Shown here piece by piece: positions 1 through 20,216 of a DNA stretch of 21,859 bases (position 1 is the first letter of the stretch; each line of letters opens with the position of its first letter). The translations under genes were made by a program, and so were the position numbers. Origin of the DNA: a virus; the IMG/VR virus record IMGVR_UViG_3300031972_000700, positions 1 to 21,859 of that record. One strand, written 5' to 3'. The notes beneath the pieces were generated by a model that was given only the letters and a program-made list of their open reading frames with translations, had not been told where the DNA came from and searched no databases.

Positions 1-796
1 CAACCTGTTTCCTAGATCCTATGTTGAAGTCTACTGTCGTAGTCCTAGTTGTAGAGAACACAGCAGGTTGCGAAAGGGTTTCATACTCTTCAGCCGTAAG
101 CCTAACGCCTTTACCTGAAGGTGTATCCCAGCTACCTGTCTTGGCAATGCCACCGCCAGCATTTTCTCTACGATATATCAGACGCTCATCTATCTTAGGT
201 TTGAACACCTTACATACTTCAGCCTCTGTCTCTGCCATCTTCTCACGCATAAGAGCCAGCAGCATCGTTGCCTTATATTCATCGAAGTAAAAGCCTTGCT
301 GCTCCTGCTTCTTGAGTATCTGAGCTACTTCTTCTTCAAGCGCCATACACTCAGGGCTAAACCCTACGCCTTCTCTCTGTAATGCTTTATATACTTTCAC
401 GTTAACAGCTACGTCACGCTTACAGTACTCAAGCATATCATCTGAGTATGAATCAAACTCCTTAAACTCAATCTTAGCCAGACCTAGTTTAGATCCCCAT
501 ACTGAAAGGCTATGACCACCTTCACGTACAGGATTAAATAGTCTAGAATATACAAGAGTGTCTACTATTTTTTGATGAGCTAGTTTGAAAGATGTGAGTT
601 TCTCAAGCACTGGTATGTCAAAGCCAATGATGTTATGTCCCGAAAGCTGCGAAGCGTTGTTCAAAAGCTTAACACCTTCTTCAATATCATCAGGGCCATA
701 CGACCACACCTGAGCTGTATCCACTTCTTGTGCTACTAGGCACCATATCTTAGTGGCATCTAAGCCATCAGTTTCTATGTCAAATAATAACTTCAT
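1..796 (-). CDS. DNA polymerase, family A (T7 gp5-like), N-terminal part; truncated by window edge
   Basis: The first ~265 residues are visible and the gene continues beyond base 1. The N-terminus carries a DnaQ-like 3'-5' exonuclease domain: ExoI FDIETDG with D6 and E8, ExoII NIIGFDIP with D60, and ExoIII YCKRD with Y124 and D128, matching the layout of the T7 gp5 proofreading domain. The polymerase palm and fingers motifs would lie outside the window, so the polymerase call rests on the exonuclease plus context. The ATG overlaps the TGA of the primase-helicase gene (ATGA, 793-796). The nearby Shine-Dalgarno is poor, so translational coupling is likely. Alternative: a free-standing exonuclease, less likely because the frame stays open well past ExoIII into helical sequence. 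Confidence 0.85.
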   Translation of the reverse strand, partial: MKLLFDIETDGLDATKIWCLVAQEVDTAQVWSYGPDDIEEGVKLLNNASQLSGHNIIGFDIPVLEKLTSFKLAHQKIVDTLVYSRLFNPVREGGHSLSVWGSKLGLAKIEFKEFDSYSDDMLEYCKRDVAVNVKVYKALQREGVGFSPECMALEEEVAQILKKQEQQGFYFDEYKATMLLALMREKMAETEAEVCKVFKPKIDERLIYRRENAGGGIAKTGSWDTPSGKGVRLTAEEYETLSQPAVFSTTRTTTVDFNIGSRKQV

Positions 797-2451
797 TCAA
801 AAGCCAACCCTGGTTCTTCTTCAAAAGTTATGTCAGTGTCATCGACTTCCCTAAGCCTACCAGTATCCTTGTCGTACTGGAGGTAGGTAGCGACACCAAC
901 ATCGCCTGTGTATCTAGACTTCAAGATGCGGACACAAGTAGTAGAGGCCACCACTGGATCATCAGACTGTTGATTACGCTCAAGAGTTATAACGCAATCC
1001 GATATTTGTCCAATGGACTGACTGCCTCTGAGGTGGCTCAGGTCTGTCTCTGCGCCCTTCTCATGGCCTTTGTTACCATCTATACGCCGTAGGTGTGACA
1101 CCAGTATAAGACCTGCTCCTGTCTCTTCAGCAAGGCTACGGAGCCTAGTCATGATGGAGTCAATGGAGCGTCGTTCATCACCTTCAAGCGTAGCAGATAC
1201 CATCATGTGTAGGTGATCTATCACTATCCACTTACACTCACATCCCACGATCATGTACCGGAGCTTTGAAAAGATACCGTCAATGTCATTGGAGCCGAAG
1301 TGTGCGTGTATCCACACCCTATCTTGATTGTCATTGTCCACAAACAGATCATCAAAAAGAATGTCTAGCTCTTCTTTTGAATGTTCTTCTCGTACACGAT
1401 CAATGTGCAACTTAGCATTAGCTTCGATAGAAAGGATACCATCAACGGTCCTAGTCCAATCTTCTTCAAGAGCTACGATACCTATGTTGTCCTCAGTCTG
1501 CTTTATAAGCCAGTGTTCTAGTTCGCGTGTAACACTAGACTTACCTAAGCCTGTGCCGCCTGCAAGTAATACTAGCTCACCCTGACGTAAGCCTTCTAGC
1601 TTCTTATTCAAGCCTTCCCAAGGGTATGGAATAGTTTTCTTCTTAACTCTGTTGTGGAACTTATCTTTATTCTGACTAACATTTAGCACGCCGCTAGGTG
1701 TGTATGTCTTAGCATTCCACCAAGCATTCACATAAGAACCATGCTGATTCTTTCGTAACATGTCATTGGCATCTTTATAACCATCAGGCATGACCATAAT
1801 CTTAGCCTTGTTAGGCTTGAGCAGCCTAGCTACTTTCTTAGCGGCCTCCTGTCCAGGTTTGTCACTGTCAAAACAGATAATAATATTATCGAACTTTTCA
1901 AGAAACTCTATCTCATTTCTAACATCTTTCTCTGCACCCTGTGCCCCATTCTTGATAGACACTACAGGCCACTTAGAGCCTAGCAACTCGTATGCTGCCA
2001 TTGCGTCGCACTCACCTTCAGTAAGCGTAATGTACTTGCCGCCTTTATCACCAACAGTCTGCTGTCCGAACAGGCCACAGTCAGAGATAGGACCAGCGGC
2101 AGTAAAACCTTTAATGTCTACGATTCGTGTCTTGTATGCGACTTCCTCAGAGCCGTTGTAATATGGATAGAAGTGCCGTGTTGTGTCACCGTTACTGTTA
2201 TGTGTAGACCTAACGCCATACTTCTTAACAGTTGCCAAACTAATTCCACGATCTTTTAGGGCATAAAAATCTCCTTCTCTAATTGTTGCGGTATCTTTAA
2301 CAAGCCTTGGAGTATTTTCCATAGCTTCTCCTGTATAGTTTCTAATGTATGTACCACATGAGAAACACTTCGCGCTACCATCTTCGTTAACACCTAAGCA
2401 TTCTCTGTGATTACAAGTTGGGCAGTCTTTGTGTGTTTCTACAAAAGACAT
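793..2451 (-). CDS. Bifunctional DNA primase-helicase (T7 gp4-like)
   Basis: The 552-residue length is close to T7 gp4 (566). Domains in order: zinc-binding domain with CPTC (C10, C13) and CFSC (C29, C32); a TOPRIM primase core with TEGECDA (E145) and FDSDKPG (D195, D197); and a RecA-like DnaB-family helicase with Walker A GGTGLGKSS (K304) and a Walker B-like WIVIDHLHMM. It would unwind the fork 5'-3' and make lagging-strand primers with the adjacent DNA polymerase. The ATG has the Shine-Dalgarno GGAGG four bases upstream, just past a hairpin terminator (2461-2487). All catalytic motifs look intact. The call is firm; only the primer recognition sequence cannot be predicted. Confidence 0.95.
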   Translation of the reverse strand: MSFVETHKDCPTCNHRECLGVNEDGSAKCFSCGTYIRNYTGEAMENTPRLVKDTATIREGDFYALKDRGISLATVKKYGVRSTHNSNGDTTRHFYPYYNGSEEVAYKTRIVDIKGFTAAGPISDCGLFGQQTVGDKGGKYITLTEGECDAMAAYELLGSKWPVVSIKNGAQGAEKDVRNEIEFLEKFDNIIICFDSDKPGQEAAKKVARLLKPNKAKIMVMPDGYKDANDMLRKNQHGSYVNAWWNAKTYTPSGVLNVSQNKDKFHNRVKKKTIPYPWEGLNKKLEGLRQGELVLLAGGTGLGKSSVTRELEHWLIKQTEDNIGIVALEEDWTRTVDGILSIEANAKLHIDRVREEHSKEELDILFDDLFVDNDNQDRVWIHAHFGSNDIDGIFSKLRYMIVGCECKWIVIDHLHMMVSATLEGDERRSIDSIMTRLRSLAEETGAGLILVSHLRRIDGNKGHEKGAETDLSHLRGSQSIGQISDCVITLERNQQSDDPVVASTTCVRILKSRYTGDVGVATYLQYDKDTGRLREVDDTDITFEEEPGLAFE

Positions 2452-5280: not shown

Positions 5281-5865
5281 TTAACCCCACTGATTTGCCA
5301 TAGCATCTGCGATACCTTGAAAGGTCTTGCTGCGTATTTTCCACCGATCCTTAGATGGTGGCAAGTAGTGCAAGCGCATCCGCTCGTTTCTAGGTAGAGC
5401 ATCGTACTGCTCTTTCACGTTGTTAGTATCCACTAACTTAGACAGACTATGCAACCATAGCCCTGTCTTTTTAGACTCAGGATGCCCAAACATCCAAGGC
5501 TGCACGTACTGCGTAGGCTTGAACGGTAGTACGCCGACAGGGTTTTCCATACAAACCTTATCACACACACTGGTAGCTAACTCCCAAAGCTTTGTAGTCC
5601 ATTCGATAGAATCTAATCTCTGGGCATGCTTAGGCATACCTTTACCGTACCATGCATTACCTGACACTGCCAAGGCTGTGCAGGGTGGATGCATTATAAT
5701 CAAGTCCCATTTCTTCCACAAGATTGCGTCTTTACAGTCGCCCTGCAAATGATACTCGCTGCCATCATCGGCAGGTAACAAATCACAAGACCAAGCCTCA
5801 TGGCCCTGCGCCCTAAATGCTTCGCGCACAGTACCGCTAGATTCACAAGCTACTAAAACTCTCAT
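5281..5865 (-). CDS. Cytosine-C5 DNA methyltransferase-like protein, compact
   Basis: The N-terminal VLVACESSGTVREAF is the SAM-binding motif I, and CDLLPADDG is motif II-like. The MHPPC loop (residues 58-62, nucleophile C62) is motif IV and MENPVG (106-111) is motif VI, the ENV/ENP glutamate. These are the chemistry motifs of cytosine-C5 methyltransferases. At 194 residues it lacks the usual target-recognition domain and classical motifs IX-X, as do related phage proteins annotated as DNA cytosine methyltransferases. It could modify phage DNA against host restriction, act on nucleotides, or be a divergent base-modifying enzyme. Shine-Dalgarno AAGGA; ATGA overlap with the upstream gene. Confidence 0.8.
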   Translation of the reverse strand: MRVLVACESSGTVREAFRAQGHEAWSCDLLPADDGSEYHLQGDCKDAILWKKWDLIIMHPPCTALAVSGNAWYGKGMPKHAQRLDSIEWTTKLWELATSVCDKVCMENPVGVLPFKPTQYVQPWMFGHPESKKTGLWLHSLSKLVDTNNVKEQYDALPRNERMRLHYLPPSKDRWKIRSKTFQGIADAMANQWG

Positions 5866-7638: not shown

Positions 7639-8193
7639 TTACTTGCTAAGTGCGTCCGATAGGATCTGCGCTAATTCTACTTGTTGTTCGGCGGTTAACC
7701 TTGCTGCTTTATTGAATAATTCGATTAATATCGGATTCACCAATCCGCTAGGAATTGCACTGGGCGATTCTGCCTCATTGCCCGATTGTGGCGTTGCGTC
7801 AGGCTTTTGTCCATCGCTACCGCTTGCTGTTTTATTCTTAGCTTGCGCCGCTGCTTTCAATTCCGCATACATGTCTGCACGTGATTCTGGCTTGCCAGTG
7901 AAGTCTCGGCAATATCGCTTGAACTCGGACAGCGTAACATCTAAGCGCATCACTCCCGCTTCCGTCATTTGCTTGGCGTTCTTAAAACCTGCCGCATTAC
8001 AGAATGCCATTTGAAAGGCCTTAAACTGCGCTTCATCATGCGCATGTATTGCGCCTTTGAAGATCTCAAAAAGCCTCGCAACCTCATTATCGCTTTTCTT
8101 GCCCGTCTTGATCATATCTTGAACAAGCTTTCGAGATTCTGCCGCTAGTTCGGCGTTCATAAGATCGTTAACAATTTTCTTTTCAAGTTTCAT
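7639..8193 (-). CDS. Unknown protein (184 aa), first gene of the leftward arm
   Basis: No family is recognised. The N-terminal ~110 residues are predicted helical and charged (KLEKKIVNDLMNAELAAESR, NEVARLFEIFKGAIHAHDEA) with YCRDFTGKPESRADM. Residues ~118-145 form a low-complexity Ser/Asn/Pro-rich linker, followed by a C-terminal helix (LTAEQQVELAQILSDALSK). Being first downstream of the divergent promoters, it would be expressed earliest and strongly, which suits a host-takeover or DNA-binding regulator; this is inference. The Shine-Dalgarno is AGGGGA about seven bases before the ATG. CTAGGGGAT (7631-7639) and its inverse (8202-8210) bracket the gene. Confidence 0.75.
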   Translation of the reverse strand: MKLEKKIVNDLMNAELAAESRKLVQDMIKTGKKSDNEVARLFEIFKGAIHAHDEAQFKAFQMAFCNAAGFKNAKQMTEAGVMRLDVTLSEFKRYCRDFTGKPESRADMYAELKAAAQAKNKTASGSDGQKPDATPQSGNEAESPSAIPSGLVNPILIELFNKAARLTAEQQVELAQILSDALSK

Positions 8194-8228
8194 TTTTTTC
8201 TATCCCCTAGAAAGTTTGTTTAGTTTCT

Positions 8229-8244
8229 GCCGCTGTTTTGCGGC
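8229..8244 (-). other. Small GC-rich hairpin in the leader of the 184-residue gene
   Basis: GCCGC-AAAACA-GCGGC on the minus strand, about 36 bases before the ATG at 8193. No T-run follows, so it is more likely an mRNA stability or regulatory hairpin than a terminator. Confidence 0.4.
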
Positions 8245-8447
8245 GACGGGGTGAACGATGGACTACAACAGAAAAGCTGTCAAACGTTTTTTGAAAAAAA
8301 GTTTAATTAATTTTTAAAAGCTAATAAAAACAATAGGTTACAACGCAAATTATTTTAGGCAAAAGCCTTGCAATGGGTAGACTTTGCACAAACCTGCGCA
8401 GATTCTAAGGCCTTTAAAGCTTTTGAATGGGTGGCTTTTTGGTGGTT

Positions 8448-8471
8448 AGTTTTGGTGATACTATATAGGGG
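8448..8471 (+). promoter_or_regulatory. SP6-like phage promoter or extended -10 promoter candidate
   Basis: TTTTGGTGATACTATA (8450-8465) matches 14 of 16 bases of the SP6 RNA polymerase promoter core TTTAGGTGACACTATA and is followed by TAGGGG. It also fits a sigma70 extended -10 element (TGATACTAT), with only a poor -35. It points rightward into non-coding DNA, as a primer promoter of an origin would. No phage RNA polymerase gene is in the window. Confidence 0.35.
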
Positions 8472-8492
8472 AATCAGAAGGTTTGGGAGCTT

Positions 8493-8508
8493 AGCAAAAA
8501 ACGTGCCA
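8493..8508 (-). promoter_or_regulatory. Leftward sigma54-type (-24/-12) promoter candidate
   Basis: On the minus strand TGGCACGTTTTTTGCT fits TGGCACG-N4-TTGCW with the required GG-N10-GC spacing. Transcription would begin near 8482 and enter the 184-residue gene at 8193. Independent in flanking sequence from the three rightward copies. Confidence 0.5.
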
Positions 8509-8533
8509 AGTTATTGAAAAGCTTGAAAAGGTT

Positions 8534-8551
8534 TGTTAGTACTCACTAACA
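8534..8551. repeat. 7-bp inverted repeat, 4-base loop
   Basis: TGTTAGT-ACTC-ACTAACA. A possible operator or small hairpin between two AAGCTT-centred palindromes. No T-run follows on either strand. Confidence 0.45.
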
Positions 8552-8640
8552 TTTAAAAGCTTTAAAAGGGCGCTGCAAGATTGTCACGCCTTCGGAATAC
8601 TCAAAAGCTTTTTAAGAACTTTTAGGAATATGAGTAAACC

Positions 8641-8656
8641 TGGCACGAAGCTTGCA
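8641..8656 (+). promoter_or_regulatory. Sigma54-type promoter element A of the 29-bp tandem repeat
   Basis: TGGCACGAAGCTTGCA fits the RpoN consensus TGGCACG-N4-TTGCW, with C before it (Y) and GG-N10-GC spacing. Predicted start near 8667, rightward toward terS. Confidence 0.5.
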
Positions 8657-8669
8657 AGGCTTTTAAAGT

Positions 8670-8685
8670 TGGCACAGTATTTGCA
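8670..8685 (+). promoter_or_regulatory. Sigma54-type promoter element B
   Basis: TGGCACAGTATTTGCA, 29 bases after element A, with the same GG-N10-GC spacing and one deviation (A for G at the end of the -24 block). Confidence 0.5.
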
Positions 8686-8698
8686 AGGCTTTAGAAGT

Positions 8699-8714
8699 TG
8701 GCACGGCTTTTGCA
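8699..8714 (+). promoter_or_regulatory. Sigma54-type promoter element C
   Basis: TGGCACGGCTTTTGCA, 29 bases after element B, a full match to the core consensus. Predicted start near 8725. A GC-rich stretch and a TATA palindrome follow. Confidence 0.5.
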
Positions 8715-8744
8715 AGGGGTAGGCAGGTGGCCAGGGGGCCTGGG

Positions 8745-8756
8745 GTATATATATAC
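8745..8756. repeat. 12-bp perfect palindrome GTATATATATAC
   Basis: A self-complementary AT alternation, echoed by GTATATATAC at 8855-8864. It could be an easily melted element of an origin or a TATA-type -10. Confidence 0.5.
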
Positions 8757-8889
8757 TAAATGATATACATTTTGAAAGCTTTTCAAGTTGTCAAGGCTTG
8801 TGCCTCGTGAGTACTTTTAGGCCGCTGATCCTTCTAAGTACTTAAAGTGCTCATGTATATATACTTGAACCGGCCCGGCCTGTTACTCT

Positions 8890-8918
8890 AGTATAGGGTC
8901 GAAATCTTAATCTGTCAA
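8890..8918 (-). promoter_or_regulatory. Strong leftward sigma70 promoter
   Basis: Minus strand TTGACA (8918-8913), 17-base spacer, TATACT (8895-8890). Predicted start near 8883. It drives the leftward arm with a leader of about 690 bases to the ATG at 8193. The bases just before the -10 (GACCC) are identical to those in the rightward promoter. Confidence 0.85.
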
Positions 8919-8946
8919 GTTTTTTTTTATTTATTTTAAAAAAGAC

Positions 8947-8975
8947 TTGACAAAACTCGTATCTGACCCTATACT
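8947..8975 (+). promoter_or_regulatory. Strong rightward sigma70 promoter
   Basis: TTGACA (8947-8952), 17-base spacer, TATACT (8970-8975). Predicted start at about 8981-8983, on or next to the terS ATG. It is recognised by host RNA polymerase and would drive the packaging and head genes. Confidence 0.85.
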
Positions 8976-8982
8976 GTACAAC

Positions 8983-9405
8983 ATGAATGGATATTTACCT
9001 CAAAAACACAAAGAACGTGAATTAACAGAAAAACAACAAAAGTTTTTAAACTGTCTAATCAAAACGGGAGGTGATCCAAAGCACGCAGCAGAGCTTGCAG
9101 GATATTCGGAAGGCAGCTATTTTCAAGTAATTAAAGCACTTAAAAATGAAATAATAGACCTGGCCTCTAATATTCTTGCTCAGTCTGCACCTAAAGCAGC
9201 TATGAAACTTGTTGAGGTAATGAACACAGATGAACCCATGCCTCAAGCTAATGTAAAGTTACAGGCCGCCCAGACTATCTTAGATCGTATAGGATTAGGC
9301 AAGCAAGACAAGTTAGATGTTAATGTAGAGTCTGAAGGTGGTGCTTTATTCATACTTCCTGCTAAAACTATAGTAGAAGGTGAATATGAAGTTACCGAAG
9401 ACTAA
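8983..9405 (+). CDS. Terminase small subunit (probable)
   Basis: The 140-residue product has an N-terminal helix-turn-helix-type region (residues ~15-55: LTEKQQKFLNCLIKTGGDPK, AAELAGYSEGSYFQVIKAL), a helical oligomerisation-like middle (APKAAMKLVEVM, VKLQAAQTILDRIGLGKQDK) and an acidic C-terminus. This is the layout of TerS proteins that bind the packaging site and stimulate TerL. The frame is open to a TTG at 8947, but that codon is the promoter -35, so the ATG at 8983 is the start, giving an mRNA with essentially no leader and no Shine-Dalgarno. It overlaps terL by 20 bases. Confidence 0.8.
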   Translation: MNGYLPQKHKERELTEKQQKFLNCLIKTGGDPKHAAELAGYSEGSYFQVIKALKNEIIDLASNILAQSAPKAAMKLVEVMNTDEPMPQANVKLQAAQTILDRIGLGKQDKLDVNVESEGGALFILPAKTIVEGEYEVTED

Positions 9406-11215
9406 ACCACGTACACAGGGCGTTGCGCCTTTTGCATACGACTCAGACGTAGAAAATAAAATTTTTGTACGTAATGAAGCTAAATACAAGATACTAAAAG
9501 AAGTAGTAGAAGGTATTGTTGCTGGTTCTATTAAGTCTATTCGTGAAGGTAGACTATTTGTAGAAGCAAAAGGTTATAGTATATCTGTACAGGCTCTTTC
9601 AAAGTACGTAAAGGATGAAAGAGAATCTATAGGTGATAAAGGTAAATATCATTACAGTAAAGCTCAGAAAGCTAAAATTGCTGCTAGAAAGTCTGTAAGA
9701 GATAAACAAAAAAGAGTTGAAGCCCTTGACAAGAAGTTAAAAGCTGCTAAAGCAAGTTTAACATCACAGACTAAGGTTCAAACTAAATTAGATGAATCTG
9801 AAGATGCTGCTACAGTTACTGGTAAGGTTGTCACTGAGGATGAGTTAGATTTACTGGCTCCTAGTACAAAAGAAGTAGTTGAAGATAAGATTATCTTTAA
9901 GCCTAACGAAGGGCCGCAGACAGACTTCTTAGCTGCTCCAGAAACAGATGTATTATATGGTGGCGCAGCAGGTGGTGGTAAATCATATGCTATGTTAGTA
10001 GATCCTTTGAGATTTGCTCACAGGACTGCTCATAGAGCGTTAATACTAAGACGTTCCATGCCTGAGCTTAGGGAGTTAATAGATAAGTCTAGGGAGTTAT
10101 ATCCAAAGGCTTTTCCAGGGTGTAGATTCAGAGAAGTTGAAAAGATCTGGACTTTTCCATCAGGAGCTAAACTAGAGTTTGGTTTCTTAGAACGAGATGC
10201 AGATGTGTACAGATACCAAGGTCAAGCATATTCTTGGATTGGTTTTGATGAGATTACACATTTAAGTACAGAGTTCTCATGGAACTACTTAGCATCACGA
10301 CTAAGAACAACAGACCCTGAGATTACTCCTTACATGCGTTGTACGGCTAACCCTGGTGGTGCTGGTGCAACATGGGTTAAAAAGCGTTATGTGAACCCAT
10401 CACCGCCTAATGAAAGTTTTATAGGCTCAGATGGTTTGACACGACGATTTATACCGGCTAGATTAGAAGATAACCCATATTTATCAAAAGATGGTAGATA
10501 TGAACAAATGTTAAAAGCGTTACCGGCTGTGCAACGCAAACAGTTGCTAGAAGGTAACTGGGATATAACAGAAGGGGCAGCTTTTACTGAGTTTGATATA
10601 ACGTCGCACGTTATACCTCCTTTTGAAATACCTATAGGTTGGGAAAGAATTAAAGGTATTGACTATGGTTATGCCTCTGAAAGTTCTTGTATTTGGGGTG
10701 CTGTTGATTCTACTGATGGAACTCTTATAATTTATAGAGAGCTTTATAGAAAAGGACTTACAGGTGTTGATTTAGCTCAAATGATTACTAATATGGAGCT
10801 AGAAGATCCTTTTTCAGTTCAGGGGGTACTAGATACAGCAGCATGGAACAGGACAGGCACTACAGGTCCAACAGTCGGAGAAACACTTCAACGAGCAGGA
10901 CATAAGTTACGTAGAGCAGATAAAAATAGGATTCAGGGTAAGATTCAAATACATGAATACTTACGAGTACAGCCAAGTGGTAGACCGAAAATACAAATAT
11001 TTAGTAGCTGTCCTAACTTGATACGTGAGCTACAAAGCATACCACTAGATAAAAAGAACCCTGAAGATGTTGATACAAACGCACCTGATCATGCTTATGA
11101 TGCTTTAAGGTACTTAATTATGTCAAGACCCAAGGTTAATGACATATTCAACCAGTTTCGACATATGAGAATGGAACAGGCTTATACGCCAGTTGATTCA
11201 GAATTTGGATATTAA
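9386..11215 (+). CDS. Terminase large subunit with a ~170-residue N-terminal extension
   Basis: The ATPase has Walker A LYGGAAGGGKS (~residues 190-200), Walker B SWIGFDEITH (~283-292) and a coupling motif TANPGGAGATW (~321). The nuclease has GIDYGYA (D~426), VLDTAAW (D~483) and PDHAYDALRY (~567-576). It cleaves concatemers and pumps DNA through the portal. At 609 residues it is longer than usual. The first ~170 residues carry a possible DNA-binding fold (VEAKGYSISVQALSKYVKDE) and a Lys/Ala-rich coiled coil, then an acidic linker. An upstream in-frame GTG (9380) is less likely than the ATG, which has GAAGG five bases before it. Confidence 0.95.
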   Translation: MKLPKTKPRTQGVAPFAYDSDVENKIFVRNEAKYKILKEVVEGIVAGSIKSIREGRLFVEAKGYSISVQALSKYVKDERESIGDKGKYHYSKAQKAKIAARKSVRDKQKRVEALDKKLKAAKASLTSQTKVQTKLDESEDAATVTGKVVTEDELDLLAPSTKEVVEDKIIFKPNEGPQTDFLAAPETDVLYGGAAGGGKSYAMLVDPLRFAHRTAHRALILRRSMPELRELIDKSRELYPKAFPGCRFREVEKIWTFPSGAKLEFGFLERDADVYRYQGQAYSWIGFDEITHLSTEFSWNYLASRLRTTDPEITPYMRCTANPGGAGATWVKKRYVNPSPPNESFIGSDGLTRRFIPARLEDNPYLSKDGRYEQMLKALPAVQRKQLLEGNWDITEGAAFTEFDITSHVIPPFEIPIGWERIKGIDYGYASESSCIWGAVDSTDGTLIIYRELYRKGLTGVDLAQMITNMELEDPFSVQGVLDTAAWNRTGTTGPTVGETLQRAGHKLRRADKNRIQGKIQIHEYLRVQPSGRPKIQIFSSCPNLIRELQSIPLDKKNPEDVDTNAPDHAYDALRYLIMSRPKVNDIFNQFRHMRMEQAYTPVDSEFGY

Positions 11216-17851: not shown

Positions 17852-18621
17852 TGGCTACTACTTTTTTACAATTAACTAATGAGCTATTGCGAGAGTTGAA
17901 TGAGGTTGCCTTAACTTCTTCAACTTTTGCTAATGCTATTGGTATCCAGCAGCATGCTAAGGATCTTATCAATAGATCTTATTTAGATATTGTAACAGAA
18001 GAACCAAAGTGGCCTTTTTTAGCGGCGGCTGAAAGTGGAGCCACTGACCCTACCTTTGGTAATGTAAGCCTAGAAACTGTAGCTGGAACACGGTGGTATG
18101 AATTAAAACCATCAAGTTCCTCTTTAACTACAGACTATGGTGCAGTAGAGTTTGAAAACTTTTACTTAACAACAGTAGGCGTTAGTGGTGAAACTGCTCC
18201 TTTTGTAGCACGTAATCTTAGATACACTACAATAGAAGAATGGAAAGATTTTTATCGTCTTAGTGAAAATCTGGATGATGCAGATACTCAAAAATTTGGA
18301 GTGCCTAGTAGAGTCATAAGAAGCTCAGATGGTCGAACATTTGGTCTTAGCCCAATACCTGATAAAGTATACAAAGTATTTTATTTTGCATATGATCTTC
18401 CAACACAGCTAGATTCTTTTGGAGATGCTATAGTATTTCCTGATGTATATAAAACTGTATTACTTGCAAGAGCTAGATATTATTTGCATCAGTTTAAAGA
18501 AAACTCACAGGCAGCAGCTTTTGCTTTAGAAGATTATAAGCGTGGTTTAAAACTAATGAAATTACGTTTAATGACTCCTGATCCAGGTTATATGAAAGAT
18601 GATCGTGTGAGGTACATTTAA
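17851..18621 (+). CDS. Head-tail adaptor protein (SU10/P22 gp4-like)
   Basis: The 256-residue product starts MATTFLQLTNELLRELNEVA and contains INRSYLDIVTEEPKWPFL, typical of the helical half of phage adaptor proteins, followed by a beta-rich region (RWYELKPSSSS, VIRSSDGRTFGLSPIPDKVY) and a C-terminal helix (YYLHQFKENSQAAAFALEDY). These proteins dock on the portal after packaging and hold the tail. The start shares a TAATG with the upstream gene; the stop shares one with the next. Confidence 0.8.
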   Translation: MATTFLQLTNELLRELNEVALTSSTFANAIGIQQHAKDLINRSYLDIVTEEPKWPFLAAAESGATDPTFGNVSLETVAGTRWYELKPSSSSLTTDYGAVEFENFYLTTVGVSGETAPFVARNLRYTTIEEWKDFYRLSENLDDADTQKFGVPSRVIRSSDGRTFGLSPIPDKVYKVFYFAYDLPTQLDSFGDAIVFPDVYKTVLLARARYYLHQFKENSQAAAFALEDYKRGLKLMKLRLMTPDPGYMKDDRVRYI

Positions 18622-20216
18622 TGTCTCAGCCTTGGGGATACTCATGTAAAGGTGGCTTAAATGTCAACTTAAACCAACTAGAGATGCTTTCTCAGCCAGG
18701 TTTTGCTACACGTTTAAGAAACTTTGAGGTAGATCCTGATGGTGGTTATAGACGTATAAATGGTTATTCTTTGTTTGGAGATACTAGACCTAATTCTAGC
18801 AATACTATATTAGGAATGGCAGTGTACGCTGATGGTATTATAGTATGTTCAGGTGATGGGATATTTTTTAGTGTAGATGGCGAAACGACTTGGCTTCAAA
18901 TTAACAGAGCAAGTGTAGCTTCTAGTGGTGATGATTATACTACTTTTACAGGTCGATCAGTAGCTGCACGTACTTCTCAAGGTCGTTGTACTTTTGCAAT
19001 ATATGAAGGCACTTCAGACTATGGTGAGATTGTAATATGTGATGGGGTTAACGAGCCTTTCTTATTTCAAATGACAGGTACAGGTGGTTTAACTAGCAGA
19101 ACATTTTTTGCTAAAGAGATTACAGTTAGTGGTACTACTGGTCCTGCTTTTGGTATAATACATGATAAACACTTAGTAGTTGCTGGGGCATCTACAGCTA
19201 AAAATACTATATTCTACAGTAGCACTAATGATATTGATAGCTTTAGTGGTAGTGGGTCAGGTAGTATTGTAATTGAAGATGCTGTAGTAGGGTTAGCAAG
19301 TTTTCGTGGCGATTTAATTATATTCTGTAAAAATAGTATTCATAAACTTGTAAATATAAATGACTCTAGTACTGTAGCAGTGATTCCTATAACAACTAAT
19401 GTAGGCTGTTTAGATGGTGGTAGTATACAGGAAGTAGGAGGAGATATATTATTTCTCGCTCCTGATGGTGTAAGAACAATCGCTGGTACTGCACGCATTG
19501 GAGATGTAGAGTTAAGCTCAGTAAGCAGAGCTATACAAAAACTTATTTCTGATATTGCTTCTGATTCAGGGTTTATAATTACAAGTGGTGTCCTTAGAAG
19601 TAAATCTCAATATAGATTATTCTATAGTAAAAATACAGAAAGCCCTAGTGTAGCCAGAGGTATTATAGGAACTTTTACTTCTCAAGGCTATGCTTGGTCA
19701 GAAACATTAGGAATACAGGCATTAGGTTTTATATCTGATGTAGACAAAGATGGAGTAGAAAAAATATTTCATGGTGATAAAGATGGATATATTTATACTC
19801 ACGATACTGGAAACTCTTTTTTTAATGACTCAACAGCAACAGATATAGATGCAGTGTATCAGACTCCTGATTTTGATTTTGGAGATATAGGAACACGTAA
19901 AACTTTAAAATATGCTAGAGTTTCATTTAGCCCAGAAGGTGAGATACTGCCTAGCTTTAGAGTACGTTACGACTACGAAGATCCTACAATACCGCAACCA
20001 GAACCATTTGAAATTTCTACAATTTTATTACCTGCAATATTTGGATCAGTAGCTTTTAATTCTATTACATTTGGCGCAACAACAGATCCAATGGAAAGAA
20101 TTACTTTAGAAGGTTCAGGAAATACTTGCAGCTTTAGAGTATCTAGTAAGGATCAAAAATCAGCATATGCTGTAAATGGTATTTATATAGATTATATGCC
20201 ATCAGGCAGGAGATAA
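18621..20216 (+). CDS. Tail nozzle / tube protein, beta-propeller-like
   Basis: The 531-residue product is nearly all beta (GGLNVNLNQLEMLSQPGFAT, ILGMAVYADGIIVCSGDGIF, GIIHDKHLVVAGASTAKNTI, LASFRGDLIIFCKNSIHKLV), with repeating blades of about 40-60 residues, as in P22 gp10 and SU10 nozzle proteins. It would close the portal-adaptor channel at the tail tip. Its place between adaptor and fibre agrees. The start follows the adaptor stop as TAATG. Alternative: a T7 gp12-like tube protein; both belong to the same functional slot. Confidence 0.75.
   Translation: MSQPWGYSCKGGLNVNLNQLEMLSQPGFATRLRNFEVDPDGGYRRINGYSLFGDTRPNSSNTILGMAVYADGIIVCSGDGIFFSVDGETTWLQINRASVASSGDDYTTFTGRSVAARTSQGRCTFAIYEGTSDYGEIVICDGVNEPFLFQMTGTGGLTSRTFFAKEITVSGTTGPAFGIIHDKHLVVAGASTAKNTIFYSSTNDIDSFSGSGSGSIVIEDAVVGLASFRGDLIIFCKNSIHKLVNINDSSTVAVIPITTNVGCLDGGSIQEVGGDILFLAPDGVRTIAGTARIGDVELSSVSRAIQKLISDIASDSGFIITSGVLRSKSQYRLFYSKNTESPSVARGIIGTFTSQGYAWSETLGIQALGFISDVDKDGVEKIFHGDKDGYIYTHDTGNSFFNDSTATDIDAVYQTPDFDFGDIGTRKTLKYARVSFSPEGEILPSFRVRYDYEDPTIPQPEPFEISTILLPAIFGSVAFNSITFGATTDPMERITLEGSGNTCSFRVSSKDQKSAYAVNGIYIDYMPSGRR

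Follow-up and report, generated by a model that had tools for sequence, protein, structure and literature searches.

In an HMO-2011-like phage, the control region between two divergent operons contains four elements that are probably σ54 (RpoN) promoters, recognized by the RNA polymerase of the host and opened by a host enhancer-binding protein. In the window, i.e., the whole stretch of DNA analysed (a 21,859-bp virus record), the DNA polymerase and primase-helicase genes are oriented leftward and the terminase, portal, and capsid genes rightward. According to the ORF map, the two operons diverge from a control region of 789 bp (8194–8982), within which no ORF longer than 49 amino acids is wholly contained. 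The leftward operon begins with an ORF of unknown function (7639–8193, minus strand), which had no match in PHROG or Pfam, and includes a DNA primase/helicase gene (793–2451, minus strand; phrog_239, E = 1.3e-179). The first gene of the rightward operon is that of the terminase small subunit (terS, 8983–9405, plus strand), assigned by PHROG (phrog_2538, E = 1.5e-8, with the longer ORF 8947–9405); its match to Pfam Terminase_2 was under the family cut-off. The gene for the terminase large subunit follows (terL, 9380–11215, plus strand; phrog_979, E = 2e-65). The closest cultured relatives by TerL are the Pelagibacter phages HTVC115P, 103P, and 104P (64–67%), which are grouped with HMO-2011. Judged by homology, the window is an HMO-2011-like phage with kin among known marine phages: its TerL and capsid are homologous to those of cultured members, and its polymerase and primase-helicase were assigned by PHROG profile only. 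The cultured HMO-2011-type phages (Puniceispirillum phage HMO-2011, Pelagibacter phages HTVC115P/103P/104P, and Roseobacter CRP phages) resemble the window in having TerL homologues of 40–67% identity and capsid homologues. The initial annotation had spoken of a lytic phage, a lifestyle that the window does not establish. No tRNAs were found in six relatives, and the control region had no match among plasmids.

Three of the four elements are arranged in tandem on the plus strand, upstream of terS, with 29 + 29 bp spacing. They are located at 8641–8656 (CTGGCACGAAGCTTGCA, including the base before; predicted start at ~8667), 8670–8685 (TTGGCACAGTATTTGCA; predicted start at ~8696), and 8699–8714 (TTGGCACGGCTTTTGCA; predicted start at ~8725). 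This triplet had been described in the initial annotation, and an exact search for TGGCACR-N4-TTGCA recovered it as the only three occurrences in 21,859 bp, with no match on the opposite strand or with the reversed control pattern. The earlier statement that two of the three match the core consensus fully is also borne out: TGGCACG is present in two and TGGCACA in the middle one, and all three have GG-N10-GC and TTGCA. The looser pattern TGGCAYR-N4-TTGCW without mismatches occurs at exactly four sites in the window, which are the triplet and a previously overlooked element on the minus strand (8508–8493; TTGGCACGTTTTTTGCT; predicted start at ~8482), directed toward the leftward operon. All four lie inside the control region and contain the σ54 core TGGCAC-N5-TTGC with GG-N10-GC. 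When up to one mismatch was allowed, the looser pattern was found five times in the window versus a mean of 1.00 in whole-window shuffles, and none of 100 shuffles reached five. The elements score 21.1, 19.9, 21.5, and 20.5 bits with an approximate RpoN matrix (maximum 21.47 bits). Scoring against shuffled sequence, as had been suggested, gave four sites of at least 16 bits in 8194–8982, none in the remainder of the window, and none in 300 dinucleotide shuffles.

We propose the following course of events based on these elements. The σ54 holoenzyme of the host would bind the elements and stay closed until activated. A host AAA+ enhancer-binding protein, positioned upstream (perhaps at a dyad at 8535–8550), would then hydrolyse ATP to open the promoters. 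The three tandem copies would fire rightward from their predicted starts into the terminase-portal-capsid operon, and element 4 would fire leftward into the replication operon. The tandem copies may raise occupancy or output. The RpoN reading fits the strength of the elements relative to shuffled sequence, their spacing, their degenerate positions, their location, and their recurrence in viral contigs.

The degenerate positions were analysed in a clade set of 26 control regions, picked mainly for carrying sites. The spacing between the two half-elements is invariant in this set, with TGGCA-Nn-TTGC occurring 63 times at n = 6 and not at all at n = 2–5 or 7–11. Among 50 unique clade sites, the base before TGGCA, which was not selected for, is T in 34, C in 11, G in four, and A in one (C or T in 45 of 50). 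TGGCA is followed by C (31) or T (19) in all 50 sites and then by G (35), A (13), or C (2), i.e., by G or A in 48. The base after TTGC is A in 42, T in six, and C and G in one each (A or T in 48). These tolerated alternatives agree with the predicted Klebsiella σ54 pattern, TGGCA(T/C)(G/A)nnnnTTGCA, as printed in PMC11704786. The sites also have a directional bias. In 25 clade regions, the left half contains 25 minus-strand and nine plus-strand sites, and the right half 19 plus-strand and three minus-strand sites, so that 44 of 56 sites point outward and 12 inward.

The initial annotation had considered that the repeats may instead be iterons. They would then serve as iterons or operators for a DNA-binding protein that the phage encodes, such as a replication initiator or a repressor, and would only resemble -24/-12 elements. 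The regular 29-bp spacing in the window would suit this explanation, as would the interleaved plus- and minus-strand arrays with a fixed unit in some contigs (e.g., L037, 43 bp), and a replication origin may also be situated in the control region. However, the sites differ from one another in spacer, number of copies, orientation, and distance, whereas the positions of the σ54 consensus are constant. The repeat as a whole is not conserved, with 30 different spacer tetramers in the 50 unique clade sites and two orientations. Similar sites are present in contigs of 66 groups defined by shared 16-mers, and the degenerate positions are those of the printed σ54 pattern. Iterons are thus very unlikely, and σ54 promoters are the preferred reading of the elements.

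Close relatives of the window differ in how much of the array they carry. L123 (46,171 bp), which has the same TerL as the window, contains the same four sites and no others, and all four elements are kept in L209 (TerL 93%). In L127, the triplet is kept at 29-bp spacing with altered spacers; a hand count over the three orthologous elements gave 27 of 27 core bases (TGGCA and TTGC) shared with the window and four of 12 spacer bases. L125 keeps three elements and has one degraded, element 3 (TTAGCACG), with TTAG for TTGG. According to the initial annotation, relatives that keep the repeat and lose GG-N10-GC would speak against RpoN promoters. Such a loss was seen once, in this element of L125, but the L127 triplet retains GG-N10-GC at 29 bp. 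Only the minus-strand site remains in L126. L128, L130, L131, and L137 (TerL 87%) have no site, with the rest of the region kept; by eye, a different GC-rich repeat block stands upstream of their terS in place of the array, between unchanged flanks. Because close relatives keep, lose, or replace the array while the flanks stay, the σ54 array looks like an exchangeable module.

The position of the sites in the wider family was determined by TerS mapping, which placed 81 of 83 loci, and sites of at least 16 bits were sought in 900 bp upstream. Twenty-two of the 81 loci have such sites and 59 have none, several of the latter being without upstream DNA. In the family, 54 sites of at least 16 bits are located in ~61 kb upstream of terS versus one in ~886 kb elsewhere, counts that are descriptive, as the loci are related and not independent. 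The appearance and disappearance of sites among close relatives would also be expected of vestigial promoters, inherited from an ancestor that lived on an RpoN host and unused in the present host. However, the four window sites are all within ~1.6 bits of the matrix maximum, L209 keeps all four and L125 three along with the degraded one, and the core of the L127 triplet is kept despite the change of spacers. We regard vestigial promoters as extremely improbable. The alignment of related phages, proposed earlier for assessing conservation of GG and GC, was less favourable when pooled. Over 195 pairwise comparisons, identity was 0.689 for the core, 0.650 for GG/GC, 0.672 for the flank, and 0.578 for the spacer, and many of the 70 comparisons listed individually involve blocks that replaced the array. 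There is no clear core excess in these values, and we counted this result against the RpoN reading.

The cultured HMO-2011-type phages differ from the window in this respect. An exact TGGCAYR-N4-TTGC was found in none of 13 whole records, which include four SAR11 phages and phages of roseobacters, rhizobia, and Vibrio. The search for cultured phages with arrays also took in relatives of several array contigs. With one mismatch, nine of 14 records, seven of which were common to the exact search, gave 28 scattered matches versus 14 for the reversed control, and no arrays. RpoN was found in none of 60 genomes in the family of a Pelagibacteraceae genome, which fits the lack of exact sites in the four SAR11 phages. 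Roseobacters, rhizobia, and Vibrio, however, carry RpoN, and contigs L210 and L211, placed in a Maricaulis MAG and a SAR86 MAG that both have RpoN, are also without a site. The host alone does not account for the absence of sites. L209 (JAAXIF010000071.1), which has all four elements, is filed in a Sphingobacteriales MAG as a candidate binning, and this MAG matches PF04552. Promoters of Bacteroidota differ from the E. coli-like σ70 type, and a predicted E. coli-like σ70 pair in the control region argues against a Bacteroidota host for the window phage.

This σ70-type pair consists of two mirror-image promoters of the form TTGACA-17-TATACT, each with 11/12 matches. One is located directly 5′ of terS (8947–8975, plus strand), and the other (8890–8918, minus strand) is directed leftward through the σ54 array. 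The pair sits in an inverted repeat with 38-nt arms (8890–8975), and the rightward -10 ends 7 nt 5′ of the terS ATG. This short distance points to an mRNA almost without a leader. The leader RNA has a strong predicted fold (z = -7.4), which is partly the mirror σ70 repeat; three matches to Rfam families were all under threshold and were dropped. The divergent σ70-type pair could by itself drive both operons as basal promoters. The σ54 array may be a conditional layer on top of this pair, or a roadblock. For the latter, sites on replicating phage DNA would trap σ54-polymerase in silent closed complexes and thereby starve the stress genes of the host or block the leftward σ70 transcript. Clusters of up to 16 sites, as in record G144, and the aim of the leftward σ70-type promoter (8918–8890) into the array are in keeping with such a sponge or roadblock. 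However, neither the outward bias of 44 of 56 clade sites nor the single-direction arrays in many contigs would be required for it, and we consider it unlikely.

Other repeats were noted in the control region. AAAGCTT palindromes recur across 8413–8786 (e.g., 8413–8429, 8514–8529, 8550–8566, and 8771–8786). By eye, 8716–8800 contains a G-rich block with TATATATAC and a stretch of ACATTTT after it, and the same arrangement is present at the same place in L126, L128, L153, and L165, including relatives without σ54 sites. It is possibly a packaging or origin element.

Arrays of this type are widespread in viral contigs. Tandem pairs were found in at least 119 stretches, a few of which have a contig in common, versus one with a spacer one base longer and none with the reversed pattern. 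Triple arrays were found in 42 stretches. In 26 records chosen for arrays, one of which is the window's own relative, there are 169 strict sites versus none for the reversed control. The view that RpoN promoters are unusual in phages, as the initial annotation put it, is thus only partly right, since they recur in many viral contigs. In G144 (the L249 record), a 1.2-kb segment (18550–19736) contains sixteen σ54-type sites, all of them on the same strand. Contig L122, which encodes a T7-type RNA polymerase of its own, has tandem σ54 sites as well. Eight of ten proteins from array contigs matched PHROG, with terminases, primase, helicase, T7-type RNA polymerase, and DNA polymerase among them, and two had no match. 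None of 200 genomes from the phylum to which G077 belongs contained the strict tandem pair; G077 is titled SAR86, which makes this phylum Pseudomonadota.

Shared 16-mers sort the 141 contigs that were examined into 66 groups. With each spacing value taken once per group, 40 of the 138 values in 20–70 bp are 25–29 bp and five are 30–33 bp, in a search for tandem pairs that admitted spacings of 22–50 bp; the 29-bp spacing of the window belongs to the 25–29 cluster. The periodicity of the spacing is above a jittered null (0/2000 reached the value). Because the peak is broad, with periods of 10 to 11.5, it points to helical phasing only weakly. In the other tandem-pair contigs whose genes could be recognized, 125 sites are directed away from structural genes, 44 towards them, and three otherwise, and 50 are directed towards replication genes and 23 away. 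The operon that would be served therefore differs between contigs.

A candidate enhancer (UAS) was sought upstream of the arrays. The dyad GTTAGT-N4-ACTAAC at 8535–8550 ends 91 bp 5′ of element 1; L123, L125, L209, and L256 have retained it. A second exact copy is located at 5422–5437, inside a methyltransferase gene (5281–5865), making two copies in the window versus 0.04 expected. L262 has a related dyad, GTTAG-N6-CTAAC, ~115–200 bp 5′ of four tandem σ54-type sites. In L252 (5505–5708), four exact copies and one imperfect copy of GTTAGG-N5-CTAAC stand immediately 5′ of three tandem sites, a cluster that looks like an enhancer array. GTTAG-N6-CTAAC gave nine exact matches 5′ of sites versus 0.25 expected, in only three of the 66 contig groups and after many dyads had been tried. 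It is also found outside control regions, as in L092, where it lies ~1 kb off the array. A general search for dyad enrichment over the 66 groups gave no motif clearly ahead of others, and repeated dyads 5′ of arrays were present in three contigs (L042, L056, and L252). The dyad at 8535–8550 is a lead, a candidate enhancer. No strict IHF site is present in the control region.

No phage-encoded activator was over the cut-off in the records scanned. PF00158 gave no match over the cut-off in 25 family records, 50 tandem-pair records, or 19 triple-array records, sets in which one record is common to two, many records are fragments, and the tandem-pair set represents 50 of 119 loci among the matches listed. 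One weak match (8e-4) was present in the tandem-pair set. The PF00158 model matched in all 14 control genomes and is therefore sensitive without being specific. PF04552 (σ54) was over the cut-off in none of 50 records. Two weak PF04552 matches in G071, at a place that by eye encodes an IS3-type transposase, were considered as a phage-encoded σ54 and dropped. If the promoters work, then with no phage activator or σ54 over the cut-off, the activator would therefore be that of the host. A tie to host nitrogen status, which had been suggested for RpoN promoters in this region, received no support. The NtrC dyad is given as TGCACCAnnnTGGTGCA in PMC8743547. In the whole window, TGCAC-N7-GTGCA with one mismatch allowed matches only at 1393, which is at chance level, and no NtrC-like site is present in the control region.

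Transcription by σ54 is silent without an activator, and a phage dependent on it would therefore place its replication operon or its structural operon under the influence of a signal from the host. Infection would then be connected with host physiology in a way that can be tested, and a host limit would be predicted, namely that RpoN is needed. Strong promoter arrays of natural origin would also become available as a set. The chances are about even that a broad set of uncultured phages has its main control region run by σ54 arrays of a viral rather than bacterial design. Without their own σ54 or activator, the timing of infection would wait on a host stress activator acting at phage enhancers, in an enhancer-dependent switch resembling those of eukaryotes. 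In PMC8744999, host rpoN is linked to phage sensitivity via glutamine supply and RpoS and not via phage promoters, and rpoN is among the host factors listed in PMC11797060. No description of arrays of σ54 promoters in the control regions of phages was found in the literature searched, as far as its text was available.

The elements resemble bacterial σ54 (RpoN) -24/-12 promoters in their bases, their 4-bp spacer, and their tolerated alternatives. They differ in that the phage elements form tandem or divergent arrays in control regions, an arrangement that, as a strict tandem pair, is absent from the 200 genomes of the SAR86 phylum. Phages of the T7 type have tandem σ70 early promoters, A1–A3, and resemble the window in that a phage operon begins with a row of several host-type promoters. 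A1–A3 use σ70, whereas the window elements are of the σ54 type and would need an ATP-driven activator. The half-site spacing of PspF differs from that of the dyad at 8535–8550. No PspF site sequence is given in the available part of PMC3709507. The PspF-controlled psp promoters of E. coli, as described there, would be similar to the predicted promoters of the window in combining a σ54 promoter with upstream enhancer sites, for which the window has a candidate, and in their stress-linked activator (PMC3709507).
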